Shown here: piece by piece, positions 1,712 through 24,149 of the stretch
Position numbering within the stretch: position 1 is the first letter of the stretch
Layout: each line of letters starts with the position of its first letter
Source of the DNA: a virus
Strand: one strand, 5' to 3'
Length of the DNA: 28,772 bases
IMG/VR virus record: IMGVR_UViG_3300042894_007152
Span: 1 to 28,772 of that record
Notes under the pieces: model-generated
What the model saw: the letters and a program-made list of their open reading frames with translations, nothing else
What the model was told of the DNA's origin: nothing
The model's database searches: none
Program-made: the position numbers and the translations under genes

Positions 1712-4700
1712 ATGTTTTTTCAATTAACTTCTCAAGCAAACCAAAAGGTCTTCGTATCTCCTGGAGTTTACACATCTGAAACTGATTTATCATTTGTTGC
1801 TCAGAGTGTTGGTGTAACAACTTTGGGTATTGTAGGTGAGACTCTCAAAGGTCCTGCTTTCGAACCAATTTTCATTACCAACTACGATGAGTTCCAAACA
1901 TTCTTCGGAGGAACGGTACCAACAAAATTTATCGGAACTCAAATTCCAAAATATGAAGCCGCTTACATTGCCAAAGCGTACCTTCAACAATCAAATCAAC
2001 TATTTGTTACTCGTATCTTGGGTTTATCAGGATATGATGCGGGTCCTTCATGGAGTTTGCAGGCGGTAGCAAACGTAGACAGTGCCTTCATCGGTATCGA
2101 CACATCAATTGCAACTGTTTCATTCACTGCTAATTTTTCCGGTTTTACTACAGGTAATACAGTGTCTTTTGGTTCAGGTCTACCAGCACTTCTCTCGAAT
2201 AATCTCTCAACATCTTACACTTTGATTGATGGTTCAACTTCAACATATAGTAGAGATGTATACAACTTCGCTACAGATATTATTGCAGCTAATTCAGTAT
2301 CAGGAAATACCGCCGTTGGTTATGGTTCAATTCCGAGTGTGGATTACAATACTTTGGCTTCGACCTATCCGAATGTTAACAACGAATTTGGTTGTGACAA
2401 TTTGAGTTTGTCCTTCGCGGATTTGTCCAATGGAAATAATGACCCTTGGTACTACGCAACTTTTGACCCAACTACAGGAAATAACTACTCAGGGTATTCT
2501 TGGTATTACTCTGTCACAAATTTCTTTACTGCGGCAACCCCCTCAGTGGCAAACAACTACTTCTTTTCAGGAACTGTTACTGGTCAATTGTACACTTATT
2601 CAGGACAGGCATACTATGATTGGAACAACTTAATTTTGGCAACAGTTCGTTCAAGAGGTATTTCAATTTATGATGCAAACGACCATGGTCCTCAATATCA
2701 AGTTACAGGTCTTACTGACTTGAACTTGGTATGTACAGGTCCTTACTCGGGAATTTCCCAAAGTCCATTTGCAACATTCTTGTTGAGTGGTACAACCTAC
2801 CAAGGAAATTCGTTTAGTTTTGAGGCGTCTTTTGATTCAACAAACTCCAACTACATTACAAAGGTGTTGGGTGTAACCAACTTTGCTAAACCAAGGACTG
2901 ATGTTCCAATTTACGTGGAGGAATCATATCTTGGATTATTGAATTACGGATTTAACAAAGGGTACGTTCGTGGGGTCAAATGTGATTTGATTGCATTACC
3001 TGAGGCAAGAGATAAGACCTCAACAACTTCAATCGCTTGGTTCTTGGACCAATACCAAACACCTAAAACTCCATTCCTTGTTTCTGAACTTCGTGGTAAT
3101 GTTGTTTACAATCTCTTCCGATTCATGACAATAAGCGATGGTAATTCCGCTAATACAGAGGTCAAAATCTCGATTGCGAATATTTCTTTCAGTAACCTTA
3201 CGTTTGATGTTTTAGTTAGAGATTTCTTTGACACGGACGCTAATCCAGTAGTTTATGAAAAATTCACCAACTGTACTATGGACCCCACAAGTAACAGTTT
3301 TGTTGCTAAGAAAATCGGTTCTTCTGATGGTGAATATCCGTTAAACTCGGCTTACGTAATGGTTGAACTCTCTGATGAATACCCTGTAGATGCATTACCT
3401 TGTGGTTTCTATGGTCTCGAAGAAAGAGTTTACGAAAGTACCGCTAACCCTTCTCCTTTCCCAATCATCAAAAACAAGTATTTCTTCCCAGGTGAAACTA
3501 TCTTTGACCCACCATTCGGAACAAGTGCGGGAGGAAGTAATATAACTTCATCTTCGGGTGACATAGTCAGAAGAACTTACTTAGGTATTTCATCTCAGTT
3601 TGGTATCGACACTGATTTGTTACAGTACAAAGGAAAAAAGAATCCAGTTGTGGGATGGGATTTGGCAACAACTTCTGAACCTTGGAACTACCAAACAAAA
3701 GGTTTCCACATGGACTCAGGTGCAACAATTATTCAGATTGCTAACTCACAAATAACTAGTGGTACTCCAGCGTTTGTCTGTGGTGTTGCTAATTTCAGTG
3801 ATGAACCTACAGACCAAGCGAATCCTTATTACTTCCTTTACTCGAGAAAATTCACCACTGTATTCCAAGGTGGTTTCGATGGATGGGACATTTACAGAGA
3901 GTTCCGTACAAACCAAGATAGATTTGCTTTGGGAGCTTCAGGTTATTTACAAGGTGCAACTCCTACTCAACGTTATCCAACGGCTTCGGGAGATGGTACA
4001 TTCAAGAGAATTGTTATTGGAGATAATACTCAAGATTTTGCTAACACCGACTATTACGCGTACTTGTTAGGTCAACTAGCGTTTGCGAATCCTGAGTCAA
4101 CAAACATAAATGTTTTTGCTACACCTGGTATTGACTACGTGAATAATTCTAATTTATGTGAGTTAGCAATTGGTATGGTTGAGAACGAAAGAGCGGATGC
4201 GGTTTATATCGTTACTTCTCCTGACTACAACATGTATACACCCGATGGAGGTTCTCAATATGAAATTATTTACCCGCAAGAGGCGGTGGATAATCTTGAC
4301 CAAACAGGCATAGATTCATCATACACTGCAACGTATTACCCGTGGATTTTGGAAAGAGATACTGTTAACAACACTCAGTTGTACATTCCACCAACTGGTC
4401 AAGTTTGTAGAAACTTAGCACTGACCGATAACATTTCTTTCCCATGGTTCGCATCGGCGGGTTACACAAGAGGTCTTGTAAATTCAGTGAAGGCAAGATT
4501 AAAACTTACACAAGAAGATAGAGACACTCTTTACCAAGGAAGAATTAACCCAATCGCAACATTCTCAGATGTAGGTACTGTAATTTGGGGTAACAAAACA
4601 CTTCAGATTAGAGATTCGGCACTTAACAGACTGAATGTTAGAAGACTTCTACTTCAAGCACGTAAGTTAATTTCGGCGGTAGCTGTTAGATTGTTGTTCG

Positions 4701-4936
4701 AACAAAACGATGAAATCGTGAGACAACAATTCTTGGATTCTGTAAACCCAATTTTGGACGCAATCCGAAGAGACCGTGGTTTGTATGACTTCCGTGTGAC
4801 AGTATCTTCAACTCCTGAAGATTTGGATAGAAACACCTTAACAGGTAAGATTTATCTTAAACCAACGAAGGCACTCGAATTCATAGACATAGAATTTTTG
4901 ATTACACCAACTGGTGCATCTTTCGAAAATATTTAA
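1712..4936 (+). CDS. Tail sheath protein (gp18-like), unusually long
   Basis: The product is the contractile sheath subunit that surrounds the tail tube and drives it through the cell envelope. The N-terminus has the sheath signature SPGVYTSETD (about residues 17-26), followed by a GxxGxxxKGP-type loop and a YDEFQTFFGG stretch. A helix then ends in LFVTRILG near residue 105. The conserved core resumes near residue 630, with a FQGGFDGWDIY segment around 718. The C-terminal domain (about 930-1074) contains NVRRLLLQARKLISAV and a YDFRVTVSSTPEDLD strand, typical of the sheath subunit handshake region. T4 gp18 has 659 residues and this protein has 1074. The excess is mainly a glycine, serine, asparagine and tyrosine-rich insertion at about 110-620, probably surface domains. 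The gene has its own upstream motif and downstream terminator. Confidence 0.9.
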   Translation: MFFQLTSQANQKVFVSPGVYTSETDLSFVAQSVGVTTLGIVGETLKGPAFEPIFITNYDEFQTFFGGTVPTKFIGTQIPKYEAAYIAKAYLQQSNQLFVTRILGLSGYDAGPSWSLQAVANVDSAFIGIDTSIATVSFTANFSGFTTGNTVSFGSGLPALLSNNLSTSYTLIDGSTSTYSRDVYNFATDIIAANSVSGNTAVGYGSIPSVDYNTLASTYPNVNNEFGCDNLSLSFADLSNGNNDPWYYATFDPTTGNNYSGYSWYYSVTNFFTAATPSVANNYFFSGTVTGQLYTYSGQAYYDWNNLILATVRSRGISIYDANDHGPQYQVTGLTDLNLVCTGPYSGISQSPFATFLLSGTTYQGNSFSFEASFDSTNSNYITKVLGVTNFAKPRTDVPIYVEESYLGLLNYGFNKGYVRGVKCDLIALPEARDKTSTTSIAWFLDQYQTPKTPFLVSELRGNVVYNLFRFMTISDGNSANTEVKISIANISFSNLTFDVLVRDFFDTDANPVVYEKFTNCTMDPTSNSFVAKKIGSSDGEYPLNSAYVMVELSDEYPVDALPCGFYGLEERVYESTANPSPFPIIKNKYFFPGETIFDPPFGTSAGGSNITSSSGDIVRRTYLGISSQFGIDTDLLQYKGKKNPVVGWDLATTSEPWNYQTKGFHMDSGATIIQIANSQITSGTPAFVCGVANFSDEPTDQANPYYFLYSRKFTTVFQGGFDGWDIYREFRTNQDRFALGASGYLQGATPTQRYPTASGDGTFKRIVIGDNTQDFANTDYYAYLLGQLAFANPESTNINVFATPGIDYVNNSNLCELAIGMVENERADAVYIVTSPDYNMYTPDGGSQYEIIYPQEAVDNLDQTGIDSSYTATYYPWILERDTVNNTQLYIPPTGQVCRNLALTDNISFPWFASAGYTRGLVNSVKARLKLTQEDRDTLYQGRINPIATFSDVGTVIWGNKTLQIRDSALNRLNVRRLLLQARKLISAVAVRLLFEQNDEIVRQQFLDSVNPILDAIRRDRGLYDFRVTVSSTPEDLDRNTLTGKIYLKPTKALEFIDIEFLITPTGASFENI

Positions 4937-5922: not shown

Positions 5923-6411
5923 ATGGCGGATTTATTAATGAAAATGCCGATTCCTTATGAACCAAAAAGACAAAACAGGTTCATACTAAGGTTTCCTTCA
6001 TCATTAGGTATTAATGAGTGGTTCGTAGAGTCAACGGCACGTCCTCACATAACCATTACACCTACTGAAATTCAATTCTTGAATACCTCAACGTTTGTTG
6101 CGGGAAGATTCAACTGGCAAACAATTCCAGTAACTTTCCGTGACCCCATCGGACCTTCAGCAGCTCAGGCACTTATGGAATGGGTACGTTTACACGCAGA
6201 ATCTGTAACTGGACGTATGGGTTACGCAGCGGGATACAAAAAAGACATCGACCTTGAAATGTTGGACCCAACAGGTGTAGTTGTAGAAAAATGGATTTTG
6301 TACGGTACATTCTTAACTGATGTTAACTTCAACACTTTGAATTATTCTCAAGATGGATTGGCAACAATCTCTGCTACTCTGAGAATGGACCGTTGTGTAT
6401 TGATATACTAA
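5923..6411 (+). CDS. Tail tube protein (gp19-like)
   Basis: The product is the subunit of the rigid inner tail tube through which DNA passes. At 162 residues it matches the size of T4 gp19 (163). It has the expected order: an N-terminal stretch ending PYEPKRQNRF, a strand with LRFP, the short segment EWFVESTARP that is typical of tube proteins, then FNWQTIPVTFRDPIGPSAAQALMEWV with its helix, and the closing DVNFNTLNYSQDGLATISATLRMD strands. It is flanked by a candidate late promoter upstream and a strong terminator downstream, consistent with a protein needed in over a hundred copies per virion. Confidence 0.93.
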   Translation: MADLLMKMPIPYEPKRQNRFILRFPSSLGINEWFVESTARPHITITPTEIQFLNTSTFVAGRFNWQTIPVTFRDPIGPSAAQALMEWVRLHAESVTGRMGYAAGYKKDIDLEMLDPTGVVVEKWILYGTFLTDVNFNTLNYSQDGLATISATLRMDRCVLIY

Positions 6412-6481: not shown

Positions 6482-7225
6482 ATGGACCAAGATACACAAA
6501 ATTACGGACAACAAAACTTTACCCTTCCCCATGATGTAGTTCAACTACCATCTAAGGGAACTTTTTATAAAAATAAAAAGAGTTCAATCAAAGTGGGTTA
6601 CCTCACCGCAAGTGATGAAAACATTTTACTTGCTGGTGGTAAGGACATGACATTAAACTTATTGAGGGCAAAGATATACGAACCAGGTCTTCGGCCTGAA
6701 GAACTTTTGGAAACCGATATTGAGGCAATATTGATTTTTTTGAGAAACACAGCCTTTGGTCCTGAAATAGAACTGAACTTAACAGACCCAGTAACAGGGA
6801 AAAAATTCAAAGCCACCGAAAGACTCGATGAATTGAACATCCAACACGGACAACAACCCGCAGAAGACGGTACATTCTCCACAAGACTACCGATGTCTGA
6901 AAAAACAATCAAAGTAAAACCAATTACGTATGGAGAGAGTATTGAAATTAGTAATATGGTAGACACTTACCCACAAGGAAGAGTTGCACCAGTCAGAACT
7001 TGGAGACTTCAAAAAGAAATCGTTTCAGTAGAGGGAGTGACAGACAAAACTGAAATTCAGAAATTTGTGGAATCAATGCCATTGGCTGATTCTAAGCACA
7101 TAAAGAAATTCTTAAATGAAAACGAACCTCGCTTGGACCTAATCCGAGTGATTATTGCCCCATCAGGAGAAAAGCTGAACGTGAATATCGGCTTTGGGGT
7201 TGACTTTTTTCGCCCTTTCTTCTGA
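6482..7225 (+). CDS. Baseplate hub assembly protein, T4 gp26/gp51 type
   Basis: This 247-residue protein has features of the T4-type baseplate hub assembly family. These are LPSKGTFY near residue 22, then YLTASDENILL, a helical region (ELLETDIEAILIFLRN) and a TDPVTGKKF turn. The C-terminus ends in IGFGVDFFRPFF, like the 'LGVNFFWP' ending of cyanophage relatives. In T4, such proteins act as catalysts or chaperones in hub assembly. The ATG directly follows the T-tract of the tube terminator, so expression is probably low and depends on read-through. The last bases overlap a second open frame (7200-7364). The layout of tube, overlapping ORF pair and tape measure recalls the frameshifted tail-assembly chaperones of other phages. 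Confidence 0.55.
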   Translation: MDQDTQNYGQQNFTLPHDVVQLPSKGTFYKNKKSSIKVGYLTASDENILLAGGKDMTLNLLRAKIYEPGLRPEELLETDIEAILIFLRNTAFGPEIELNLTDPVTGKKFKATERLDELNIQHGQQPAEDGTFSTRLPMSEKTIKVKPITYGESIEISNMVDTYPQGRVAPVRTWRLQKEIVSVEGVTDKTEIQKFVESMPLADSKHIKKFLNENEPRLDLIRVIIAPSGEKLNVNIGFGVDFFRPFF

Positions 7226-7364
7226 CTATCGGCAAAACCAAATTGATGAATTTTATTATCTCTCTCAATTTTTCGGAGTTTCCTACTCGGATTTTACTGT
7301 CATGCCAGTATTTGTCCGAAAGTATCTTCTGAATAAATGGATTGATGAAAAACAGAAATCCTGA
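7200..7364 (+). CDS. Small out-of-frame ORF overlapping the hub-assembly gene, possibly made by frameshift
   Basis: A frame one base ahead of the upstream gene is open from 7185 to a TGA at 7362-7364. It encodes a peptide of about 54 residues if counted from TTG 7200. The peptide looks real: IDEFYYLSQFFGVSYSDF, then MPVFVRKYLLNKW and a charged tail, which is the pattern of small helical proteins that follow the hub-assembly gene in T4-like phages. No ATG exists before this core. The only starts are TTG at 7194 or 7200, or entry by a frameshift at the T run in GACTTTTTTCGC (7202-7213). A peptidyl Phe-tRNA on TTT could slip forward to TTC before the CGC codon, or slip back two bases. The coordinates assume the TTG start. 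A frameshift product would be a fusion of about 297 residues. Confidence 0.6.
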   Translation: MTFFALSSDYRQNQIDEFYYLSQFFGVSYSDFTVMPVFVRKYLLNKWIDEKQKS

Positions 7365-7403: not shown

Positions 7404-9026
7404 ATGTTTTTTCAAACCACAGCAGATAATCAAGGTAGCGATAACTTTGCGGACCGTATCAAAGAAGGTATTAAGGAGTCTGTAAATTTACTTGGAAACA
7501 TTGGTCGTATCCAAGATGGTATCACCAACATCAACCGTGGATTTGGTGAAACTCGTGAAAGATATCAAGAGTTTTCTAAAGTTGTCTCTGACAGTGTTTC
7601 AGATATCACACGATTAGGTGGGGGTGTTGCGGACATTGCTACGACAATAGAACAAATAGGTTTGGGTGCGAGGAGAAACGTAGTCGCTTCCAAAGAGACG
7701 TTATTAGAGATTTTCGCCACCCAACAATTCTTGGGACAGACTGTTGCGGGTATAGTTGAAAATTTTGCACAAATAGGTGTAGATTCTTCTATGATTGCTG
7801 AAAACGTAGAAAACTCCGTTAATTACGTAAGAGGAATTGGACTTAATGCAAGAACCATCATGAGTGACGTTTCTGCCAAAATGGATTTGATGAATAGATT
7901 CAATTTCCAAGATGGTGTTTTAGGTCTCACAAAAATGGCTGCGCAGGCTTCAATGTTGAGATTTGATATGCAAAAAACCGCAGATTTTGCAGACAAGGTT
8001 ATGAATCCTGAAGGTGCGATTCAAACGGCCGCGGCATTCCAAAGACTTGGAGTTGCTTCAGGAAATTTAATTGACCCATTTTTTTTGATGGATAAATCAA
8101 TAAATGACCCTCAGGGACTTCAAGACTCACTAATTGACCTTACAAGACAGTTTACATACTTTGATGAACAGGCTCAACAGTTCAAAATTAATCCGGGGGG
8201 GGTTAGGTTAATGAAAGAACTTGCTGAGGCTGCGGGTATGACGCTTTCCGAGTTTTCCAAAACTGCAATATCGGCGGCTGACTTAGATAGAAGGTTATCT
8301 ATGATAAACTTTGAAATAGACGCACCTGAAGAAGATAAACTTCTCATTGCTAATATGGCAAAGATGGGTGAGGGTGGTCGTTACTTCGTAGAAATTGAAG
8401 ATAAGGGTCAAGTCGAATTGGGACAAATAACTCAGGAAGAGTTCGGAAAGTTAAGAGAATCATTTGAAGAACCAAAAACAATTGAAGAAATCCAAAGGAG
8501 TCAATTGGATACGTTCAGACAGGTATCCAACGATATTATAGCCTTACCATTGAGAATTGGATATGCTCTTGCAGGACAAACAGGACTCGTTCGTGGTATC
8601 GAAACCTTAAGGTTTGAAACAGACAAATTAGCCGAAAGATTTTTAGGTGAACAAGGGTTCGGAACATCACAAGATTTCCGTGAAGGATTTGAAGGAATGG
8701 GAGACAAATTAATTGGAGACTTACAAAGTGTGATTGCTGGTGAAATGACCACCACAGAATTTCAGGCGAGTGCTATGTCGGCAATACGTGGTAATACTTC
8801 CCTTTTTCAAGAACAAGACAGAAGAAGAGGGTCCGCAGCAACTATTCAGACCCAAAGTAAAGTTGAAGTAGATGGGGATATAGTTATTCGGGTAGAAGCT
8901 CCCACAACTTTAAGTGAGCAACAAATTGATAGTATATTCAGTAAAAGAGAGGTACAAGAAAAAATATACCAAATAGTTTCGTCACAGGCTGATGTCGCTA
9001 TTAGAAAATCTAAAAATAACAACTAA
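7404..9026 (+). CDS. Tape measure protein-like (gp29-like)
   Basis: This 540-residue protein is long, polar and largely helical, with few prolines and no clear globular enzyme motif. It lies downstream of the tube and hub-assembly genes and upstream of the baseplate genes, where a tail length-determining protein is expected. T4 gp29 is about 590 residues, so a tail of similar length would follow. Residues 1-110 are alanine, glycine and aspartate-rich helices. A more compact region spans about 150-330. The C-terminus (about 480-540) has a VDGDIVIRVEAPTTLS strand segment and a terminal helix ending in lysines and asparagines. The first codons (ATGTTTTTTCAA) are identical to those of the sheath gene. 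The function is inferred from position and composition. Confidence 0.55.
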   Translation: MFFQTTADNQGSDNFADRIKEGIKESVNLLGNIGRIQDGITNINRGFGETRERYQEFSKVVSDSVSDITRLGGGVADIATTIEQIGLGARRNVVASKETLLEIFATQQFLGQTVAGIVENFAQIGVDSSMIAENVENSVNYVRGIGLNARTIMSDVSAKMDLMNRFNFQDGVLGLTKMAAQASMLRFDMQKTADFADKVMNPEGAIQTAAAFQRLGVASGNLIDPFFLMDKSINDPQGLQDSLIDLTRQFTYFDEQAQQFKINPGGVRLMKELAEAAGMTLSEFSKTAISAADLDRRLSMINFEIDAPEEDKLLIANMAKMGEGGRYFVEIEDKGQVELGQITQEEFGKLRESFEEPKTIEEIQRSQLDTFRQVSNDIIALPLRIGYALAGQTGLVRGIETLRFETDKLAERFLGEQGFGTSQDFREGFEGMGDKLIGDLQSVIAGEMTTTEFQASAMSAIRGNTSLFQEQDRRRGSAATIQTQSKVEVDGDIVIRVEAPTTLSEQQIDSIFSKREVQEKIYQIVSSQADVAIRKSKNNN

Positions 9027-9050: not shown

Positions 9051-12000
9051 ATGGCCAGTCCACTCGATTTTCCTAGTTCAGAGGTCTTCAGAAAAAAACT
9101 TATTGTAAGAAACTTAGTTCCTTACAAAAAGACTCCTGGTTTACCGAGTGCCCCATTTCAATATGAAGTAGTACAGAGAGATTTATCTCCTGTTGATTCC
9201 AACGATGCTCTTATTGACACACCTGTATTGGCTAATGGTTTATACCCACTCAATCAATATGGTGCTGACGGTGGTTACAAACAAGTAAGAGATGTTAACA
9301 TTTTACAAAACACCCGTAGTAACGAAGGTGAATACGGATACCAAGATGCTAACATAATCGATGAAGGATTCATTGCAGCACAAACGGGTTTCCCTGGAGT
9401 GGCGCCGGCTTGGAAACCCCTTAACGCATATGCCAGTACTGACCAATTAACTGACGCGGCTGGTTTTTTCGGTAGTTTAGAAATCTTAACCCAAAATAAC
9501 GGAAGGAGTTCAAACGCTCAACCTTATCCTAATTTCAATTCTTCTTCGTACTCAACAATTAGTTTAATGTTGAATCCTGACCCTCAGGGTTCAAATGGTT
9601 TATTGTCGAGTGATTCTTATTTGGCAAAATTAGGTGCAACAAACCTAAAAAAACAAATCGAATATAATATTGGTCGAGAAATTAGACGTAACACTTTGGG
9701 ACGTGCTAATTTTCTTAACGTAAATGGTGGGGAAGATATACTTGCATTCATTAATGGAAGGGTGCCTTTATTAGAACCAAACTGGACAATTACTGAGGGT
9801 TCTACAATTATTGGTGCTGCTGCGGGATTGTTGAATAGAATATCGGGTTCATATGCGCCGTTTTCAGTCATACCAGGACAATATTTTGACCCACAAATCA
9901 ATAGTGGTATTCCTACAACGGGCCAACAGTTAGCTTCAGCATTTTTAGGTGCAAACTTAGCGGCTGGTATTGGTAGATTTTTTGCAAGACTTAATTCACA
10001 ATCGAACTTAAGGGGGTCACAACTGTTCCTCGAAAACACTGGTGGAGGTCAACGTTCTCAACTATTCAAAAATTTAGATTACAACCTCTACAAGCCGGGT
10101 TATGACCGACCAATTTTCGACCGAGTTGCAGGTGCTCTACAAGGTAGAAATACAAATAATGGGGAATATTATATTGGAAGTGTAAAAACGGAACCATCAC
10201 AGGTATTTTCGCCTTCTGGTGATGTTCCTGTTGACCAATTTGGTAGAGAAATTCAAGCTCCTGTTTATGGACCACAAGAGTTGGCTCAACTTTATGAGGG
10301 ACCTGGACAAGCACTTAACTTGGGTGCTAACGGACCAACATACAGTAGTGGTGGTGATATTGTAGGTGGGTTTACTTGGGTTTCACCCAAATTCAAGGGT
10401 AATGCCGGAAAGTATGTTGGATTGGGTGGAGATGCAATCGCTGAGGACCCTGACTTTAGACCTTCGGCATACCAACCAACAGAATCTACAGAATTCCAAT
10501 TTAGGCAAGGTTCGATTATGGATGATACCCAACGTATCATTGACTCACAGCCAAGAGGAGGTAGAAGACTTCAACATGTTGGAAATGCAATCGACCAAGT
10601 ATCGAAAGTGTTCAATGATGGGTATAAAGAAATCACAAAAGGTTCAAGAGTTAGAAGATATATTGGTGAAATTGGTGCCGAAGTGGGAATTGAATATTGT
10701 AGAATATTCCAAAAAGACACTCCGTACCTACAATACAATGACCTTCAAAAAACCGATGGTATAACCACCGAAGGAAGAAGATTTGCTTATTCGATATTTG
10801 ACAAAACATACAACCTTAATATCGCCCCCAATAAAAGAGAAGGTGGACAAGACTCCACAAATCTTATAGGTGGACCTGAGGGATATGCTAAAAAGTATAT
10901 GTTCTCTTTAGAAAACTTGGCTTGGAGGACTTCGAACAGACCAGGTTTAACAGTTTCTGACTTACCTGTGTGTGAAAGAGGTCCAAATGGGGGTCGGGTT
11001 ATGTGGTTCCCACCATACGGATTACAATTTAACGAGTCTGTGAGAGCATCGTTCAAATCAACTGATTTTATCGGTAGACCAGAACCTGTATTTACCTACT
11101 CCAACACTTCTAGGTCGGGAACCCTTAATTGGAAGATAGTTGTCGACCACCCATCGGTGCTCAATATGTTGGTCAACAGAGTCTTAAACGACACCACCTT
11201 GAAACAAAGGGCGGATGAAATTTTGGATTCTTTCTTTGCGGGATGTAGGAAATACGACCTTTATGAATTGGCAAGAAAATATTACACGGTTAACCCGAAT
11301 GACATTTTTGAAATTCAACAAAGATTGGAAACTAAAAATGTCACAAGAGAAGAAGTTCAGTATTACACGAGAACTATTCAAAGTGGGGGATTCAATACAA
11401 CTAATGGAGGTACTGCAGGGGTTTCAACTATTGCAGGGAGTTCTTCCTCACAGGTTGCAAATTCGGGATACAATTACCAATCAATAGTTAATTTTGGTTT
11501 TTACTACGACAATGATATTCCTAAACCACCACCAGCTCAAACAACAAGCTTTCAGGGTTATTGGGATGCGTATACTAGTCAATCGAATAAATCCAAATAC
11601 CAATCCAAAAGTACACCTTTAGGTCAGGCAACGAATGTTGCAAATTTCTTTACTCAAGTTGTTGAGGGAAACAAACAAGCTATTGATGTCGCCCTACGTA
11701 GTTTGAGTGACGACTTAACGAATGACCCAAGTGCGACCGCAACAATTTTATTGGAAGGAACGGCTTCGGCACCACAAAAAGTGGATTACAACCAAAGACT
11801 GTCAGTAAGAAGGAATGATGCGGTAATACAATACATCGCGTCAATTGGTAACTTAGGTAGTTTGATTCAAAACAAACAATTGTTCCTACAACAAAGAGCG
11901 TCTGGTGAAACTTCAACAGTAACTGTTAAAGGTGTAAACCAAACCGAAAATTTTGGAACGTATAATTGTGCGAGTGTTGTTGATGGCGCTGATAACCTTT

Positions 12001-14135
12001 CAAGTGATGAGTTAATTTACACCATAAATGCAATGGCTTGTAGAAGAACTTCGATTGCCAACATTTCATATAACCCGTCAACCAAAATAGAAGAGGTTAC
12101 TTCAAATGATGAAATACCTTTCTATAATACAGAAATCATTGAAAGCCGTACACCGAGAACAACTGTTGAACAGACTATTGTTGAAGAAACTGTGTTTAGA
12201 GACAACATTACTAAAAGAGTGTTAAGAAATCTATTGTCAGAATGTGATTACTTTGAAGTTATCAAACAAGAGACTCCAATGGTTTATGACAGTTTGAAAG
12301 AAAAACTAAAATTCTTCCATCCTGCATTTCACTCTATTACACCTGAAGGGCTCAATTCAAGACTAACATTCCTTCAACAGTGTATGAGGCCTGGTGACAC
12401 AATACCAACAGTGAAAGTTGACAAACAAGGTAATAGTAGTCTTCAGTATAATAATGCCGTTAACACTTCATTCGGAGCACCACCAGTTTTGATTCTAAGA
12501 GTTGGGGATTTTTTCCACTCTAAAATTATTCCTGAGAATCTGTCAATAAATTATGAAGATTTAGATTTGAACCCTGAGGGAATCGGTGTTCAACCAATGA
12601 TTGCAAACGTTTCTTTGAGTTTCCAATTTGTTGGTGGTCAAGGACTAAAAGAGTCCATCGACAAACTACAGAATGCTCTGTCGTTTAACTTCTACGCCAA
12701 TACCGAAATCTACGATGATAGGGCGGATGCTACTGATGATAGTTACAAAGTAATTGACCAAGACTTTATTAAGGACTTTGGATTACAAGTCCCACCACCA
12801 ACAATCAATCAAGTCCAAACAACACAACCACAGAATAACTTAGAAACCATCGGTAGAATATTGACTACAACCAATACACCAACTGGTGATATCGGGACTA
12901 TACAGTACAAGGATTTCATGGCTTTGTTATCAGTTCAAACTCAAAATTATTTTGCGACGGTGAACAATAAAATGAAAGACTTGAACCTCCAATACAACAA
13001 CGGTTTGAGACAACAATTCTCCTTTTCAAGAAACTACACTGATGGGGAACTTTTAGCCACAGGAACAAACTTTAATGTACCTTTATTTGGAAAACCGGCA
13101 CAGTTAGAAAGAGATATCAATATTGTTTTCAAGGATTTCAAAGACAACATTGACTCGGACACTGAAGGTTTCATCAGTTATTTGATAAATGATGTTGGTA
13201 TCTTCTCGAACAAAACTCTGAGAAATATTAAAAGAAATTACAAAGACTTTATCGATAATTTCAGAGGAACGTATCAAAACGGTGCAACATCAATACTTCA
13301 AAGTTTAGTCGATACACAGACATCATATATTCAAGTCCTTTCGAGAGCAAATGTAATACCTTTCCGTGCGAACACTTTCGGTCCTGATACTGGTACAGAT
13401 GGATTCCAAAGGACTGATGGAAATGTCGTAGTTTTGGATGTATCAGGAACGACAGCAATTTCACCCTCCTCACTTGGAGTTTCGAATACATTAGAGGAAC
13501 TTATAAATGACATTGGAATTGTTGGCTCAGCACTAACACAATTCAACGAAGTTATTCAAAGTGAATACACCGCTAACGTAAACGGACAAAGCTACACAGG
13601 TTATTTTGCATATGATACTGGAATACAAGTACAAATCAAACCTGATGTTTTCATTCCATTTACTTCAGGTAACACATTTTGGACACAATCAAATAAACGA
13701 CAGTATTTTATTTTGGCACAAGAAATAATCGACGAGAACAAATACAACTCATTCAAAAATTCTTTGATTGGTAATCTACAAGGGAACAGTGGGGCGTTGG
13801 GTAACTTGACATTCGAACAAGTTTCACAAACATTTGATAACTATTGGCGAGGAGTCGCTCGACCAGCTTACGTTAGTGAAAACCAAGCAACTCAATTATT
13901 CTTGGATGATTTCCAAGCGAACGCTTTGGCGGGTGGGAAAACGAATTTCATAGTGTTCACACCCTACAACTTAAATAAAGAAAGAGTTTTTACTTATGAA
14001 AAACTTTTACAACCAACATCAGAACAAGTTCAATTAATCAAAGGACTTGGACAAAAAAACAATGTCAACACAGACAACTCTTCTTGGGCGACTAAGTTTG
14101 GAGATGTGATAATAGGTAAAGCACAATTGTTATAA
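9051..14135 (+). CDS. Giant baseplate protein with OmpA-like domain
   Basis: This 1694-residue protein lies in the baseplate cluster directly before the gp53-like gene. Residues about 640-730 contain MWFPPYGLQF, FIGRPEPVFTYSNTSRSGTLNW and VDHPS, a beta pattern I associate with tail-baseplate junction proteins. A second region (about 1140-1230) has a similar layout: PPVLILRVGDFF, NLSINYE and QPMIANVSLSFQF, as in LysM-type tail proteins of contractile systems. Between them (about 870-935) is an OmpA-like module with YNQRLSVRRNDAV (N914, R920, R921). Compare OmpA's YNQGLSERRAQSV. The aspartate of the usual GHTD motif is replaced (GTAS, 903-906). The N-terminal 600 residues are glycine, asparagine and glutamine-rich and unrecognised. 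The gene ends two bases before the next ATG. A baseplate role is likely and the exact T4 counterpart is uncertain. Confidence 0.6.
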   Translation: MASPLDFPSSEVFRKKLIVRNLVPYKKTPGLPSAPFQYEVVQRDLSPVDSNDALIDTPVLANGLYPLNQYGADGGYKQVRDVNILQNTRSNEGEYGYQDANIIDEGFIAAQTGFPGVAPAWKPLNAYASTDQLTDAAGFFGSLEILTQNNGRSSNAQPYPNFNSSSYSTISLMLNPDPQGSNGLLSSDSYLAKLGATNLKKQIEYNIGREIRRNTLGRANFLNVNGGEDILAFINGRVPLLEPNWTITEGSTIIGAAAGLLNRISGSYAPFSVIPGQYFDPQINSGIPTTGQQLASAFLGANLAAGIGRFFARLNSQSNLRGSQLFLENTGGGQRSQLFKNLDYNLYKPGYDRPIFDRVAGALQGRNTNNGEYYIGSVKTEPSQVFSPSGDVPVDQFGREIQAPVYGPQELAQLYEGPGQALNLGANGPTYSSGGDIVGGFTWVSPKFKGNAGKYVGLGGDAIAEDPDFRPSAYQPTESTEFQFRQGSIMDDTQRIIDSQPRGGRRLQHVGNAIDQVSKVFNDGYKEITKGSRVRRYIGEIGAEVGIEYCRIFQKDTPYLQYNDLQKTDGITTEGRRFAYSIFDKTYNLNIAPNKREGGQDSTNLIGGPEGYAKKYMFSLENLAWRTSNRPGLTVSDLPVCERGPNGGRVMWFPPYGLQFNESVRASFKSTDFIGRPEPVFTYSNTSRSGTLNWKIVVDHPSVLNMLVNRVLNDTTLKQRADEILDSFFAGCRKYDLYELARKYYTVNPNDIFEIQQRLETKNVTREEVQYYTRTIQSGGFNTTNGGTAGVSTIAGSSSSQVANSGYNYQSIVNFGFYYDNDIPKPPPAQTTSFQGYWDAYTSQSNKSKYQSKSTPLGQATNVANFFTQVVEGNKQAIDVALRSLSDDLTNDPSATATILLEGTASAPQKVDYNQRLSVRRNDAVIQYIASIGNLGSLIQNKQLFLQQRASGETSTVTVKGVNQTENFGTYNCASVVDGADNLSSDELIYTINAMACRRTSIANISYNPSTKIEEVTSNDEIPFYNTEIIESRTPRTTVEQTIVEETVFRDNITKRVLRNLLSECDYFEVIKQETPMVYDSLKEKLKFFHPAFHSITPEGLNSRLTFLQQCMRPGDTIPTVKVDKQGNSSLQYNNAVNTSFGAPPVLILRVGDFFHSKIIPENLSINYEDLDLNPEGIGVQPMIANVSLSFQFVGGQGLKESIDKLQNALSFNFYANTEIYDDRADATDDSYKVIDQDFIKDFGLQVPPPTINQVQTTQPQNNLETIGRILTTTNTPTGDIGTIQYKDFMALLSVQTQNYFATVNNKMKDLNLQYNNGLRQQFSFSRNYTDGELLATGTNFNVPLFGKPAQLERDINIVFKDFKDNIDSDTEGFISYLINDVGIFSNKTLRNIKRNYKDFIDNFRGTYQNGATSILQSLVDTQTSYIQVLSRANVIPFRANTFGPDTGTDGFQRTDGNVVVLDVSGTTAISPSSLGVSNTLEELINDIGIVGSALTQFNEVIQSEYTANVNGQSYTGYFAYDTGIQVQIKPDVFIPFTSGNTFWTQSNKRQYFILAQEIIDENKYNSFKNSLIGNLQGNSGALGNLTFEQVSQTFDNYWRGVARPAYVSENQATQLFLDDFQANALAGGKTNFIVFTPYNLNKERVFTYEKLLQPTSEQVQLIKGLGQKNNVNTDNSSWATKFGDVIIGKAQLL

Positions 14136-14137
14136 CT

Positions 14138-14461
14138 ATGGCCTTTCAATACTACAACAGGTATACCCCTTTTCAGAACAACGGACAGACAAGCGTAGTC
14201 CCTTACATTCCATTGACAACCAAACCATCAGATAAAATTTATGTTTATAAAGTTGGTAGAAGTAGATTGGATAAAGTTTCGCAAGAATATTATGGCACTC
14301 CGTTCTTCAGTTGGTTGATATTACAGGCTAATCCTGAATTTGGTGGCTTGGAAAATAATATAATTGATGGTGCAGTATTGAATATTCCTTATCCTTTAAT
14401 AACTTCATTACAAGACTATAAACTTTCGGTAGAAAACTACTTCTATTACTATGGCAGATAA
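14138..14461 (+). CDS. Baseplate wedge protein, gp53-like with LysM-type fold
   Basis: This 107-residue protein resembles the core of T4 gp53, the wedge subunit that clamps baseplate arms. The telling segment is RLDKVSQEYYGTPFFSWLILQANPEFGG (residues about 45-72). It matches the T4 pattern of an 'xAxxxYGxPxxxWxLLxxN' helix-turn-helix. It is followed by DGAVLNIPYP, the closing strand typical of LysM-like domains. It is shorter than T4 gp53 (196 residues), lacking the C-terminal extension. It starts two bases after the stop of the giant upstream gene, and its own end overlaps the next gene by 11 bases. The three genes therefore probably form one translationally coupled unit. Confidence 0.65.
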   Translation: MAFQYYNRYTPFQNNGQTSVVPYIPLTTKPSDKIYVYKVGRSRLDKVSQEYYGTPFFSWLILQANPEFGGLENNIIDGAVLNIPYPLITSLQDYKLSVENYFYYYGR

Positions 14462-17400
14462 TGTATTCGGGGACAATTCAGGTAACATTTTTGTAGACGC
14501 CGATTACAACAACATTATCTTAGTTGACCCAAACAAAACTTCAAGGGTTACTTCGGGTGGTAGAGCCATCGTTGAGGAAAGATTAGTCGACCATGAAAAT
14601 TTGGTTATGTATGCCAATCTTGAAGCACATGTGCTTCCAAGAACAAAATTAGCGGTGGGTGCCAGTCCACAGGACAATCTTAGAACAATTTCAATTGCAT
14701 CAATAAATTTCTTGAAACCTAACAGTGACGAATTTCTTAATACTGGTTATTACGATGATTTGACAGGTTTGAATTCAAATGCTGGTAAAGCAAGAAATCA
14801 AAGATTCGAAACAGTTGTAAGTAACGACAACAATGGACAAAAATTTTACAAACAGTTCACCGCGACTGACACAAGGGGTCAGGTAATCGACAACGGTCTA
14901 TTGGGTATTACTAGTATCCAAATACGAACAAATATGTCTTTTATTCCTGAGGTCACGATTGAATTGGAAGATGTACAGGGTAAAGCGTTGTTTGAATCGG
15001 GGGACCAATCTCCTTATGCTGCATTTTTTAATTTACCTTATTGTCCCTTTTATTTGACACTCAAAGGTTGGTATGGACAAGCGGTTCGATACCAACTTAA
15101 TATGATAAAGTTCACCGCACGGTTCAACACCTTTAGTGGGAACTATCAGGTGACTTGTCAGTTTGCGGGATACAAGTACAACATTCTCAATGAGATATCT
15201 TTGGGACATTTGATTGCCACACCTCACATGTATAGTAAGACCTTCAACATCACCAGAAACGATGTTGGTCTTCAGGATGGTAATATCGAAAGTTCTGCTT
15301 TGGCTGAGGGTAATTTGACTGGAGACATCGAGATTTCTGATGAGGTAACAAGTGTTTCGACAGTTTCCGAAAGAGGGTATCAGAAAATCAAAGAATTGTA
15401 TGGAGAGTATAAAACCAAGGGATTAATACCCATGGACTTTCCAGAAATTACTGTTGCGGAAATGGCCTACAAGTTACAACACTTGGAACAGGATATTCTG
15501 AATGAATTTAAGGGGAAGGCGGACTTACAACCTTTGACAGACTCAACAACCTATGCAAAATACTTGGACCAGTACTTCAAAAAAATTAGAGGACAAGGTT
15601 CATCATGGTTTGGTAAATATGTTAACCCAAATCCATATGTTTTACAAAATGGTACATTAGTTTATGGATTCAAATCTGAATTAGACCCTGAACAAAGAGA
15701 CAGAGCCTTAACTGAATTAAGGGCTGAAATAACATCTTTTACCGCAAGATTAGACGAAAACAGAACATTTGGTGAGGTAAGAGGGGAAAAGAATTTCAAA
15801 ATAGATAATTCGATTACATATAACTCTATAGTAACCTTTATTGACCCAGGTCAGTTGGATTTACTTCAAAGTCTACGTCAACAAACAGGCGTATTAAACC
15901 CCACTTCGGGTCAAACTAATGATTTTTTCAATAGAATACTTCGTGACCAATTCAATGTAACAATCGAAATAACCCCTGAAGGTATCAAGTCAGTTAAGAA
16001 ACCTTTCTTTGTATTCGAGGGGTTAGGTAGATTCGACAACTTGATTCGGGTGATGCAGAGTGATTTGGACAAAAAAACCTCTATCATTGAAGAAGATTTG
16101 AGTGCCAAATTAGCTGAAAGAATCGCATCGAAAAGTGGTTTAGGTTTTGTTCCGACTGTAAGGAATGTGATGGCCGTTATTTTTGCCTCCACGGAAGCAT
16201 TCATAAGATTGATGGATGAGGTACATAGTGAGGCTTGGGATGTAAGAACAGACCCAATCCGAAAGAATGTAATTTTTAATAACTCCACGACCGTTCCCAA
16301 TTCGGATAACGTAAGGAACGTACAATACGCGGCTAACGCATCAAACGCAGCGGTAAGTTCGGAGGAACCTGTTTATCCTTGGCCACAAATTTTTATTGAG
16401 AACAAAGACAGAAACAATGTTAACAAGTATGAACTAGCATACCCTGGCGACCCAAGTATTGTTAATCTTACAAAGGGTTATCTTTATGATAAGTGGCCCG
16501 AAGTAGAATTTGTTGAAGAATATCTGAAAGGTGTCAGTCAGAGATATCAACCCCCGATTACACAACCCCCTGTTGAGAATGAATCACAGGTAACAAATAG
16601 GTTGAACATTAATGCCTTAGAATTTCCTTATGTTAACTTTGCGTACCTCAACAAAGAAGAAGTGAGATTCTTCTACGAGATTTACGAAAGAAGTATCATC
16701 TATCCAAGATACACAGGATTGGCGAGAGTCGGGAATTCGGCCAACAGAACCGCAATTTTGGAACTCGTTGGAAACGTTGAATCAAGTAACATTGTGACAA
16801 GTTTAGGGGTTAGTTCACCTTACATTATTCTTAAACTCAAAAATTTCCCCCTTAACTCTGACAACTATATCTCGTTCTTATCTACCATATCTAACGATGG
16901 AACAGGAAGGGATTGGAATAATTTTGTCAGAGATTATTGGATAACACCTTATCTTAGGGACGAGGTTGCTAATAGTAGCTCTATATTAAGTTTGGATTCA
17001 CTTTCAACGAGTGTACAAACTCAAACATTTTCTTTGCCACAAGTGGAGTCTTTGGCACAACTTCTTACTTTGACAACAACCAATCCCCCACAAATTGTAG
17101 ATACATATCCCTTTACTGATGAGCTGTGGAACACCACATACCTCAATGGATATATCCTAACAAATGATGTTGATAGAGCATTCAACACTACTAAGACGTA
17201 TAGATTATACCAACAGAAAAATCTTATTACCAACTTTACTGACCCAAATAACAAAACTGAAATACGTCCTGTTACTTCTTTCAGTTACTTGGATGCCACT
17301 ACCCCCACTTTAACAGAAGGTTTAGAAGAATTCTTCACTGGTAGAAACGCTGGTGACCTTTTACCAACAGAGGGATTTGTTTCATATCAGTCTGCAAACC

Positions 17401-20400
17401 TACCACTTAGAACAACTACGTCAATGCTCAACACCCCGTACTTTATCAATGCGGTACAGTGGGGGGTTAACAGACAAAAAGGAGCTCAGAATGCACCGTA
17501 CAAAGAAGCTGCTTACTTGTTTTTGAATTCATTGCCGTTGGCGACCCTAAAGGAAAGATATCAAACACTGAACTCTGCAAACCCGTTGGATTACATTTTT
17601 GCGTCGATGAAGAAGTTCGGTGCCGTTCACAGACTCCCTTATGTGTGGATTCTCAAGTACGGTTCGATTTGGCATCGATACAAGACGTTTGTTCAAACGG
17701 GGCAAGACATCTTAGCTCCGATTTGGTCGGACTACGATTACATCGGAAACTACGACCCCAATAACGGTGACACATCATTGAGTTATACTTTGAACGGGGT
17801 GGGGACAATCACCCTTCAAGAGCAAGAATTAGATACGGGAACCTTATACGACGAATTACAAATTGGTTTTTACCCACGTACTATCAACGATTTCAATTAC
17901 TTCTTGAACGGAAGAGATTTATGGAGTGGTTATACTGATAGTGAAATCAATCAATCAATTGCTCAAGGATTCAAAATTCAGAATCTTAGTCAGTCGAACA
18001 TTTTTGTTTCTACAACTGACACCACAGGTCTGCCAAGGATTATTAACATCAATACCTACAGTTGTTTAGTTCCTGATACAATTGAGCCTTCTGACCCAAA
18101 TGTCTTGGTTTGTAATACACCTCCATCTACACCACAGACCAATTACTATATCTTACCTTCTTTTGGTACAACCGAAAACCAAGTAAGACAAGCACTTTTC
18201 AATGATGCGGGAGTACTGACTCAAAATATTGAGAACAACCCTTCAATTTTTAATGGAAGTGTAAGAACAATGTGGAAGATGCCAAACTACGGATACTTGG
18301 ACATCCAAGGAGTTCAGAGACCAGATTACGACGCTTACGTTAATCTTATTCCAATAGTTGGTGTTGTTCCTCCCTTTACTTTGAGAAACACTCAAGACTA
18401 TTCCAAGATTGATGATTTATTGTCAACGTTTGAAAAACAAGTCTTGGATTCATTCGAAAGAGAGTTTCTGAAGTTTTCACAACCTGTTACTAACTTTGAC
18501 CCACAATTAGGCGGGGGGGACTTTTTGATTGATGAGGCTCTAGCAACTACAAGAGGAACTTCTCAAGCACTTACCACAACAAACAATACATACAAAAACT
18601 TCCAAATGCTTTATAGGGAGCTAATGAGTGTTCCACTTCCAATTGTTTTTGCCGACCAAGAGGAGATGTTCAAACAAGTTATTGACAACCAATTCTCCAA
18701 ATCAATGAGTCAATTGCAAAACTTATTGGAATTTGATGTTGTCTTGAGAATAGGAAACCCAACACAATACAAAAGAAGAGAAACCGATTCGTATTTGACT
18801 TACATTACAGGAACCAACATCGTAGTTGACCCGATTCCTTTTGGTCCATATGTTGATGGTTCATTGCCGACTAATGGTGGTTCGGTAACATTAATTCAAT
18901 CACAAGTTGCTAATCCACAGGCTTGGTCTGCCCTAAGAACTGAAGTTGGGTTCTCAACCATTCCTGAATTGGCTTATGGGGATAATGGTTCCTTCATAAC
19001 AGATTTCTTCATTGATAACAACATCGCCTTCACACAGCAGAATGTTGAATTCATGGCTCCGATTATCAAGATGTACGCTACACAAAAATTGGATGACCCA
19101 AATGTGACAAGTCAGACTTTTGCCGTGACACTTCAAGATTATTTGGAAGGTAACCTAACATTCCAAAATACTGCATTGGATAATACTTTGAATCTTGTGA
19201 GGAGGGAACTTCCGAATATTACGGAGTTACCTGAAAAAACAATTCAGTCAAAGTTTGATTCCAAGCAAAGTAAGGTGGAATTATATGAGGTCTTCAAGGC
19301 ACTAAATGATAAATGGATTGCTGGTTCGGATTATAATAATCAAACTTTATTTGAGGACATGTTGTTTTTGGACAGGGCATCAAGGAACATTGGGGACAAA
19401 ATTGTTTTGGACATTTTTGATTTGAAAATGATGGCCGACCCAACAAACATAAATTACAATATGAGTGTGTTTGTGTTTATAAGCGGTATACTGACCCAAA
19501 ACCATTTCTCAGTGATGCCACTACCTTCTTACATTAATTTCTATAATGTACAAGATGTTTCGGCCAACGCTCAGCCAAACTTGGAACCTGGTCAGGATTT
19601 CGCTAACAGTATGTGGGGAACATTCTTAAATGTCGATTACAGAAATTCGGGTCCTAAATTGGTTTGTTTCTACACTGAAAGACCATCTACCTATGTAGAT
19701 ATGCAAAGTGAAAACAAAAACTACCTCTTCAGAAGTGATGCATTTGATTTGAGAGAACCACAACTTAATCCGTTAGTGGAGAACCAAAGTGACAAAACAG
19801 ACTGGGCGTTGTCAAACAGAGTTGTGGGATTCAACGTTGACATTGGTACAAGAAATCAAAATGTATTTTATTCATTTTCTATTAGTCAGGATGGTGGTAA
19901 GGCGACTTCTGAAAGTATTCAAAACGTTAACTTGATTGCGGCAAGTGCTGCGGGTAGAACCACCTCAACACAGAATGTTTCGTTGTACAACATCTATAAG
20001 AACATGACTTACGAATGTGAAGTTGTTTCATTTGGTAATGCGCTTATTCAACCTACAATGTACTTCAACCTGAGACATGTTCCGTTGTTCAATGGTTCAT
20101 ACATGATTACTGAAGTACAACACACTGTTGCACCTGGTACATTTCAAACCAAATTTACGGGAATCAGACAAAGTCTTTTTGCACTACCTTATTTGGATGG
20201 ATATCTTCAGAGTATCAATAAAAATTTGGTTAGCAAACTTCTTCAGACAACCAAACAAAAGAAAAGTGTTACAAGAGGTACTACCACTACAACAACTCAA
20301 GGTAACAATGCTAATCTTTCCACTGACCCTCGTACTCAAAACGACACACCCAACTCGTGTGTATCTAAGGTCTTGGAAGAGCCGTATTTGAATACCTTTG

Positions 20401-20975
20401 GGTATGATTCAACCAGTGGTGTTGAAACCTCTATTAATGCTCAAGGATTTATTTCTTTGTTGAATCAATCTACCGACAATTCCGATTTAAGGTATGTAAT
20501 ATTCTTGTTGTCTTATGCATCAACAGGAGTAAATCAACAACTTCAATCTTCTAACAACAACTTTGGTAAGATTACTTTGAATTATGATTTTGGTGCAACC
20601 GCGGACCAATATTTTGAAAGAAGATATGTTTGTAGAAAAATACGTACTCAAGCATCAACTGAAATATCAATGCCGTTTGCATCTTTTGCTAATCCGTTGA
20701 GTTACATCAATTTTGTGAGAGACAGAGTATTCAATAATTTGGGTGAAATACGTTCGAAGAGTATTGAACAGTTCTTTTTACAGAACTGGCCCTACCCAAG
20801 AGCAACCAATCAGTCTCAAAGTGCACAACTAAAGGCTAGTTTGAAAGAAGCAGTTAGTTTGGCAGAACAACTTGGATTAACTTCCACCTTACCTGTTTAC
20901 ACTCCAGCACCCACTCCAACACCTCAACAAAATAATATAAACGTAATCAATACGGTTACACCAACTTGTACCTAA
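14451..20975 (+). CDS. Giant baseplate hub protein (gp27-like) with possible wall-hydrolase-like C-terminus
   Basis: This 2174-residue protein begins within the end of the gp53-like gene. Residues about 150-260 look like a hub tube-barrel: GITSIQIRTNMSFIPEVTI, YLTLKGWYGQAVRYQL and FNTFSGNYQVTCQFAGYKYN. Residues about 1860-1925 contain the hub closing pattern, with QPTMYFNLRHVPLFNGSYMI, EVQHTVAPGTFQTKFTGIRQ and aromatic residues after it. About 1600 residues of beta-rich, unrecognised sequence separate these parts. A threonine-rich linker (about 1940-1970) leads to a C-terminal module (about 1985-2115) with NNNFGKI, YVCRKI and FASFANPLSYINFVRDRV, reminiscent of lysozyme-fold wall hydrolases. 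A catalytic glutamate is not evident. A proline and threonine-rich tail follows. Hub identity is moderately supported. Hydrolase ancestry is tentative. Confidence 0.6.
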   Translation: MADNVFGDNSGNIFVDADYNNIILVDPNKTSRVTSGGRAIVEERLVDHENLVMYANLEAHVLPRTKLAVGASPQDNLRTISIASINFLKPNSDEFLNTGYYDDLTGLNSNAGKARNQRFETVVSNDNNGQKFYKQFTATDTRGQVIDNGLLGITSIQIRTNMSFIPEVTIELEDVQGKALFESGDQSPYAAFFNLPYCPFYLTLKGWYGQAVRYQLNMIKFTARFNTFSGNYQVTCQFAGYKYNILNEISLGHLIATPHMYSKTFNITRNDVGLQDGNIESSALAEGNLTGDIEISDEVTSVSTVSERGYQKIKELYGEYKTKGLIPMDFPEITVAEMAYKLQHLEQDILNEFKGKADLQPLTDSTTYAKYLDQYFKKIRGQGSSWFGKYVNPNPYVLQNGTLVYGFKSELDPEQRDRALTELRAEITSFTARLDENRTFGEVRGEKNFKIDNSITYNSIVTFIDPGQLDLLQSLRQQTGVLNPTSGQTNDFFNRILRDQFNVTIEITPEGIKSVKKPFFVFEGLGRFDNLIRVMQSDLDKKTSIIEEDLSAKLAERIASKSGLGFVPTVRNVMAVIFASTEAFIRLMDEVHSEAWDVRTDPIRKNVIFNNSTTVPNSDNVRNVQYAANASNAAVSSEEPVYPWPQIFIENKDRNNVNKYELAYPGDPSIVNLTKGYLYDKWPEVEFVEEYLKGVSQRYQPPITQPPVENESQVTNRLNINALEFPYVNFAYLNKEEVRFFYEIYERSIIYPRYTGLARVGNSANRTAILELVGNVESSNIVTSLGVSSPYIILKLKNFPLNSDNYISFLSTISNDGTGRDWNNFVRDYWITPYLRDEVANSSSILSLDSLSTSVQTQTFSLPQVESLAQLLTLTTTNPPQIVDTYPFTDELWNTTYLNGYILTNDVDRAFNTTKTYRLYQQKNLITNFTDPNNKTEIRPVTSFSYLDATTPTLTEGLEEFFTGRNAGDLLPTEGFVSYQSANLPLRTTTSMLNTPYFINAVQWGVNRQKGAQNAPYKEAAYLFLNSLPLATLKERYQTLNSANPLDYIFASMKKFGAVHRLPYVWILKYGSIWHRYKTFVQTGQDILAPIWSDYDYIGNYDPNNGDTSLSYTLNGVGTITLQEQELDTGTLYDELQIGFYPRTINDFNYFLNGRDLWSGYTDSEINQSIAQGFKIQNLSQSNIFVSTTDTTGLPRIININTYSCLVPDTIEPSDPNVLVCNTPPSTPQTNYYILPSFGTTENQVRQALFNDAGVLTQNIENNPSIFNGSVRTMWKMPNYGYLDIQGVQRPDYDAYVNLIPIVGVVPPFTLRNTQDYSKIDDLLSTFEKQVLDSFEREFLKFSQPVTNFDPQLGGGDFLIDEALATTRGTSQALTTTNNTYKNFQMLYRELMSVPLPIVFADQEEMFKQVIDNQFSKSMSQLQNLLEFDVVLRIGNPTQYKRRETDSYLTYITGTNIVVDPIPFGPYVDGSLPTNGGSVTLIQSQVANPQAWSALRTEVGFSTIPELAYGDNGSFITDFFIDNNIAFTQQNVEFMAPIIKMYATQKLDDPNVTSQTFAVTLQDYLEGNLTFQNTALDNTLNLVRRELPNITELPEKTIQSKFDSKQSKVELYEVFKALNDKWIAGSDYNNQTLFEDMLFLDRASRNIGDKIVLDIFDLKMMADPTNINYNMSVFVFISGILTQNHFSVMPLPSYINFYNVQDVSANAQPNLEPGQDFANSMWGTFLNVDYRNSGPKLVCFYTERPSTYVDMQSENKNYLFRSDAFDLREPQLNPLVENQSDKTDWALSNRVVGFNVDIGTRNQNVFYSFSISQDGGKATSESIQNVNLIAASAAGRTTSTQNVSLYNIYKNMTYECEVVSFGNALIQPTMYFNLRHVPLFNGSYMITEVQHTVAPGTFQTKFTGIRQSLFALPYLDGYLQSINKNLVSKLLQTTKQKKSVTRGTTTTTTQGNNANLSTDPRTQNDTPNSCVSKVLEEPYLNTFGYDSTSGVETSINAQGFISLLNQSTDNSDLRYVIFLLSYASTGVNQQLQSSNNNFGKITLNYDFGATADQYFERRYVCRKIRTQASTEISMPFASFANPLSYINFVRDRVFNNLGEIRSKSIEQFFLQNWPYPRATNQSQSAQLKASLKEAVSLAEQLGLTSTLPVYTPAPTPTPQQNNINVINTVTPTCT

Positions 20976-21023: not shown

Positions 21024-21248
21024 ATGGATATGAATTCTATGTTGAACCAATATCTTGGAAAACAAACCAGAATCCGTCAGACTGACAACGGAGATGGAAC
21101 CAAAAACGTCTGTGACTTGGACACAGGAGATTGCTATACAATTCGTGAAAGAGACGGATTAATTGAAAGAGCCGGTAATGATATTACTATTAATCGTAAG
21201 GTTAGAGTAGAAACACCCAACGGAGTTAAAAATTTATTAAATGGCTAA
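21024..21248 (+). CDS. Small protein of unknown function, downstream of hub gene
   Basis: I do not recognise this 74-residue protein. It is polar, with an N-terminal helix (about residues 1-12). A strand-rich middle contains two cysteines (VCDLDTGDCYTI, about residues 30-41) and a basic C-terminal part. A second ATG six bases downstream is also possible. It lies directly behind a candidate late promoter and overlaps the next gene by eight bases, so the two are probably co-expressed late and may be minor virion or assembly proteins. That role is inferred only from position. Confidence 0.65.
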   Translation: MDMNSMLNQYLGKQTRIRQTDNGDGTKNVCDLDTGDCYTIRERDGLIERAGNDITINRKVRVETPNGVKNLLNG

Positions 21249-22870: not shown

Positions 22871-22882
22871 TTTAAGTTAGTT

Positions 22883-22912: not shown

Positions 22913-22917
22913 ATCAC

Positions 22918-24139: not shown

Positions 24140-24149
24140 TATCTTCTTT

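Follow-up and report, generated by a model that had tools for sequence, protein, structure and literature searches.

We analysed the viral DNA stretch IMGVR_UViG_3300042894_007152 (IMG/VR record positions 1 to 28,772, all 28,772 nucleotides of which we call the window) and find that a single gene at 6482–7364 on its plus strand very probably yields both a short and a long protein by a +1 ribosomal frameshift at the TTT codon 7208–7210. The gene belongs to the T4 gp26/gp51 family and is a predicted tail assembly chaperone. A first-pass annotation made from this DNA alone had proposed a programmed frameshift that makes a long chaperone form, and comparison with 123 relatives supports that proposal. 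The elements of the locus are as follows.

6482–7225, plus strand: open reading frame 1 (ORF1), the short form of 247 amino acids; PF12322 and phrog_150; the N domain of a T4 gp26/gp51-type hub assembly protein or tail assembly chaperone.
7185–7364, plus strand: open +1 frame, preceded by TGA at 7182; it contains TTG codons at 7194 and 7200 but lacks ATG.
7205–7213, plus strand: putative shift site TTT TTT CGC, where the TTT in the peptidyl (P) site, 7208–7210, would re-pair on TTC 7209–7211, making GCC 7212–7214 the next codon.
7211–7213, plus strand: CGC, the zero-frame codon of the aminoacyl (A) site, 4 of 8836 codons.
7212–7361, plus strand: extension segment after the shift, first codon GCC, with its stop TGA at 7362–7364.
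7212–7222, plus strand: double-coded stretch, translated as (R)PFF in the ORF1 frame and as ALSS in that of the extension.
7223–7225, plus strand: ORF1 stop TGA, bypassed by the proposed shift.
6482–7364, plus strand: predicted long (frameshift) product of 293 amino acids, junction ...GVDFFALSSDYRQ..., translated with TTTC read as one Phe step.

In the proposed mechanism, most ribosomes would terminate at 7223 and release the 247-residue short form. In a minority, with UUU in the P site and a slow CGC in the A site, the Phe-tRNA would move forward by one nucleotide onto TTC, and translation would then run on to 7364 to give the 293-residue long form with its three-helix C-terminal domain.

The second ORF is not a product of chance, as judged from its relatives, because 430 IMG/VR stretches encode proteins related to the small peptide; a query with ORF1 returned 27. 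The comparison set consists of 123 distinct close relatives, reached after two added scans with divergent members. Scans for close relatives that used the proteins of SP-15 and Atu_ph07 recovered nothing beyond the records of these two phages, and the bacterial genome collection that we searched contained no relative. The +1 peptide frame is open over 40 codons in all 123 close relatives. Beyond the ORF1 stop, the ratio of nonsynonymous to synonymous substitution (dN/dS) in this frame is 0.16, as expected for purifying selection and like the value of 0.15 for the last 60 codons of ORF1, whereas the other two frames of the same DNA give 2.2 and 0.85 and contain three to four stops. The protein segment without an ATG that the first-pass annotation had placed one frame ahead of ORF1 thus stands. 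Its assigned extent, 7185–7364, holds for the open frame; the part that would be read after the shift begins at the GCC codon at 7212.

The 3′ end of ORF1 reads GGC TTT GGG GTT GAC TTT TTT CGC CCT TTC TTC TGA, so that the short protein ends in IGFGVDFFRPFF. The motif GAC TTT TTT CGC, already remarked on at the overlap, occupies 7202–7213. Among the close relatives the junction GGG NYN GAN TTY TTT CGN CCT TTC TTC is almost invariant. The second Phe codon is TTT in every one of the 123 (the first is TTC in five), and its third base has undergone no changes on the tree, compared with 5–22 at comparable two-fold sites and 2 at the first TTT. The codons CCT TTC TTC are also unchanged in 123 of 123, as expected because they are double-coded. 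In the A site, CGC is present in 66 relatives, CGT in 40 and CGG in 17, and CGA never occurs. CGC was rightly called uncommon: with 4/8836 it ranks second from the bottom in codon use across the window's large ORFs. We infer that a slow CGN codon would stimulate the shift.

The place of the frame change can be narrowed further. The bases just 5′ of the T-run vary with the valine and aspartate/glutamate codons of ORF1, and the +1 frame there reads TTG, TCG, TGG or TAG; a +1-frame stop stands directly before the T-run in 13 of the 123 relatives. We also scanned the peptide frame for start codons from its last upstream stop to about 13 nucleotides past the ORF1 stop. No ATG, GTG or TTG is present in this range in 4 of the first 44 close relatives (clade B, the window clade), in 23 of 67 members of clade A, a second +1 clade, and in 28 of 80 members of the −1 clade. 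Given these stops and the members that lack all three codons, the frame switch is therefore confined, on the comparative evidence, to the run of Phe codons. Re-pairing by +1 is feasible in all 171 distinct +1 members, which favours the forward slip on TTT|C before CGC that the first-pass annotation had listed among its options.

Two purine-rich elements upstream of the site are synonymously invariant.

7196–7199, plus strand: GGGG, a possible Shine–Dalgarno-like stimulator, 5 nucleotides before the T-run.
7166–7170, plus strand: GGAGA, a second synonymously invariant purine motif, 39 nucleotides upstream of the shift site.

The GGG glycine codon, three codons before the T-run, is retained in 123 of 123 relatives with no changes, against 15–31 at other conserved four-fold sites, the GGA at 7166 excepted. 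GGG is a low-use glycine codon in the window (7.0 per 1000, versus 33.4 for GGT). GGGG may act in a Shine–Dalgarno-like manner; the GGG element is absent from clade A. The GGA glycine codon at 7166 likewise shows no changes in the 123 relatives, and GGAGA lies too far upstream for a usual stimulator.

The gp26/gp51-type identity assigned in the first pass is confirmed by a PF12322 match of 33.2 bits, above the cut-off of 24.5, and by a phrog_150 match (E 1.6e-9) over residues 14–243. The N domain and the extension were folded separately. The AlphaFold model of ORF1 has a mean predicted local distance difference test score (pLDDT) of 84.9 and finds 54 Foldseek matches at E ≤ 1e-3; where these have informative names, T4-type baseplate hub or hub assembly proteins predominate. 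In the model, residues 240–247, where the extension would join, are disordered. The extension is modelled as 51 residues in three helices (pLDDT 91.8), and a sequence search of solved structures with it returned nothing. Profile comparisons connect it to T4 gp51 through a chain: the window clade extension matches that of clade A (97%), clade A matches proteobacterial −1 relatives (92%), and both these −1 relatives and a cyanophage group match the gp51 C-terminus (76–78%). Residues 147–246 of gp51 and the small ORFs of S-SM2, 6E35.1a and RHph_I9 all fall under the profile phrog_634, ‘baseplate hub assembly catalyst’, which directly matches 3 of 69 extension sequences. Weak matches to Pfam DUF6760 occur in 12 of these 69 (A3 members and clade A extensions; best E 0.0011). 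DUF6760 occurs in extracellular contractile injection systems, and through it such systems might carry the same chaperone pair.

In T4, gp26 is short and ends in GLKEFFELL like the short forms described here, and gp51 holds N domain and extension in one frame. The two appear to be an equivalent short/long pair, each member with a gene of its own. This arrangement fits the account, attributed to Vladimirov, Gautam and Davidson (2022) as summarised in a later paper (PMC10885494), that in some T4-like phages a short copy and a fused copy take the place of frameshifting. T4 itself, the model invoked in the first pass, seems to reach the same end with its two genes, 26 and 51.

Several observations weigh against this explanation of the locus. 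CGT, the A-site codon of 40 of the 123 relatives, is not rare in the window's large ORFs, so that stimulation by a hungry codon cannot be the full explanation. We found no conserved RNA structure downstream: no covariation was detected, and z is about −0.9 in the window clade. The direct profile match between the window-clade extension and gp51 is nil (0.1%), so that homology depends on the chain of comparisons given above. No Foldseek match of the extension reaches significance, although several of the matches were named tail assembly chaperones. Finally, a +1-frame ATG lies about 38 nucleotides before the ORF1 stop in 22 of the first 44 relatives and would permit independent initiation.

The last point belongs to the strongest alternative, in which translation of the extension begins independently, as a small protein of its own, from TTG 7194 or 7200, from the upstream ATG of some relatives, or from a rare start near the T-run. 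Precedents exist, since the small ORF of Microcystis phage Mel-JY01 is annotated from a TTG and T4 has an internally started product, 26′. The candidate starts are nevertheless poorly kept. The upstream ATG overlaps AAT GTT codons in ORF1 and lacks conservation; the separate in-frame ATG which the first-pass annotation regarded as contrary evidence is found in half of the first 44 relatives without being a fixed feature. The window's TTG is TCG, TGG or TAG in relatives, and a stop separates any such start from the domain in 13 of 123, falling between the TTGs and the T-run; this speaks against the TTG starts that had been offered as alternatives. In 4 members of clade B and 23 of clade A, none of the codons ATG, GTG and TTG is available. 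An independent start also leaves the invariance of the second TTT unexplained, and in T4 gp51 the domain is fused. We consider this explanation unlikely.

A −2 slip on the T-run, like that of Mu, would enter the same frame with one additional Phe. The T6 run of the window permits it, and the required re-pairing is feasible in most of clade B (96 of 100 members) and of clade A (65 of 66). Five relatives with TTC TTT CGY in place of TTT TTT CGY retain the +1 frame, and the GAT/GAA TTC TTT CGY variants are L373, L379, L387 and L417. In such variants only the step from UUU to UUC is therefore left: the second codon alone re-pairs by +1, and −2 is impossible. The same restriction to +1 applies to L108 (TTT CTA) and L111 (TTC TTT CGT) and, by simple pairing rules, to L109 (TTT CTT TGG). 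All seven keep the frame, and the −2 option raised in the first pass, being excluded in these natural relatives, is very improbable for the family. The joint conservation of T-run and peptide that the first pass proposed to check holds for the second TTT, in 123 of 123, and fails for the run as a whole, which is broken in five relatives that keep the peptide frame.

Slippage of RNA polymerase on the T-run, with one base dropped and the frames fused in part of the mRNA, would suit the T6–T7 runs at the junction of most members, but the run is interrupted (TTC TTT) in five relatives that keep the frame, and at the site in L108, L109 and L111 at most three T stand in a row, which makes this the least credible of the explanations. 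A slip at the invariant GGGG, where GGG could re-pair by +1, was rejected: relatives with GTA would read TAG immediately afterwards, a dead end.

The +1 arrangement extends beyond the window clade. In clade A, made up of Mel-JY01, immuto (a Flavobacterium phage) and some 65 distinct loci from IMG/VR, the change to the +1 frame falls at TTT TTT TGG CCT, and the extension is also in the +1 frame in Bacillus SP-15, Listeria LIS04, vB_SagM-GXN1, Rhodothermus RM378 and LR756508. It is in the −1 frame throughout the S-SM2 group (80 of 80 distinct loci) and in S13, Moby, 6E35.1a, RHph_I9, OC, Atu_ph07 and LR756511, at sites that are nearly all T TTT TTC/G/T. Vibrio phage D532 (L285) and Cba120 (L288) have a −1 extension without a canonical slippery heptamer (CTT TTC AAG and ATT TTC ATT, respectively). 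In the N-domain tree the direction of shift tracks the branches and two changes are needed, with long branches that leave the placement of Atu_ph07 and LR756511 unsure. LR756511, a 595-kb phage, has the −1 site T TTT TTC and an N domain that groups with the +1 phages; from this case, direction may have switched more than once. GenBank records annotate the extension as a truncated small gene (immuto35A_232 and SP15_046), let it begin at a later ATG as a small gene (SSM2_011) or leave it unannotated (LIS04). These cases are at 3857–3967 in L109, 3297–3416 in L112, 3196–3369 in L114 and downstream of 1932 in L281.

The arrangement resembles lambda gpG/gpGT and P2 E/E+E′ in that a short and a long protein would come from one start, with a second, overlapping ORF that is out of frame and has no conserved start of its own. 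As in those phages, the gene adjoins the tail tube gene and precedes the tape-measure position. The slip codons are Phe-rich, as in P2, whose slip site is T TTT TTG. It differs in that the shift is +1 in 123 of 123 close relatives, rather than the commonest form, −1 on X XXY YYZ, and in that the N domain is of the PF12322 gp26/gp51 family. With T4 the locus shares the PF12322/phrog_150 N domain and perhaps, via the profile links, the phrog_634 extension domain, but it would use one gene with a +1 shift where T4 uses two genes without frameshifting. The −1 relatives (S-SM2, S13, Moby and 6E35.1a, and the Vandenendeviridae, PMC12846349) have the same junction of N domain and extension and, in the S-SM2 type, the FF codons; they shift by −1 on T TTT TTC, whereas the window and clade A shift by +1. 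PolyT −1 sites have been reported in T4-like and Vandenendeviridae chaperones (PMC12846349). Bacterial RF2 (prfB) offers a parallel in the forward re-pairing of the P-site codon, a presumably slow A site and a possible G-rich Shine–Dalgarno-like stretch upstream; here the A-site codon is a sense codon (CGN/TGG) rather than UGA, and the G-run is 5–8 nucleotides away from the P-site codon, compared with 3 in RF2. As a P-site codon for +1 slipping, UUU ranks among the most efficient after CUU (PMC10885494). The tail chaperone of the haloarchaeal myovirus HSTV-2 very likely uses a +1 shift (PMC5009743), a likeness in the direction of shift in a tail-assembly gene.

The neighbouring genes are as follows.

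5923–6411, plus strand: tail tube protein gene, the upstream neighbour (phrog_4542, E 2.1e-24).
7404–9026, plus strand: downstream gene of 540 amino acids in the tape-measure position, its identity taken from position.

The first pass had placed the locus between tail tube and tape measure genes. The upstream half of this claim is borne out; the downstream gene has no family match above cut-off and does not resemble the tape measure of immuto. The gene at the corresponding position in immuto and LIS04 is annotated as tape measure, and the order tail tube, chaperone, tape measure may hold here too. Elsewhere in the window, the best sheath-profile match of the tail sheath gene (1712–4936, 1074 amino acids) covers only residues 753–1072, leaving a long N-terminal part without that match. 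Two giant ORFs (9051–14135 and 14451–20975) have no PHROG match, and on the minus strand a 198-residue open frame (21294–21890) is antisense to nearly all of a 218-residue ORF (21241–21897). Downstream of the tail genes, 22013–25160 encodes a single-strand binding protein, a UvsX-like recombinase and an exonuclease match. Scanning the window for Rfam families and tRNAs gave no hits.

If the lambda gpG/gpGT pair is a guide (PMC5009743), tape measure and tube proteins would be brought together by the long form, with many short and few long copies holding the tape measure and recruiting tube subunits. Frameshifted tail chaperones as a kind, and polyT −1 sites in T4-like chaperones, are already known. 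We met no +1 site conserved throughout a large gp26/gp51-family branch in the literature consulted, where the findings of Vladimirov et al. (2022) are represented by papers that cite them, and the +1 device in this family is probably new. T4-like phages have been presented as a group that makes tail chaperones without frameshifting, and a large T4-like branch appears to use forward frameshifting. The frameshift would also account for a series of small genes that are absent or truncated in records of phages, and it would give the C-terminal part of gp51 a role as the minor-form domain. We know of no general motif for +1 frameshifting; more than 100 natural variants of one +1 site, together with sister −1 clades, form a ready experiment on slip direction. 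On balance, we lean towards a picture in which the two-domain gp26/gp51-family chaperone is made in three ways, by −1 shifting in cyanophages and proteobacterial phages, by +1 shifting in the window branch and in Flavobacterium, Microcystis, Bacillus and Rhodothermus phages, and from two genes in T4: the need for a short and a long form would be fixed, and the direction of slip would have switched at one pair of Phe codons, with the spacing between a G-rich element and the slip codon as a possible tuning factor.
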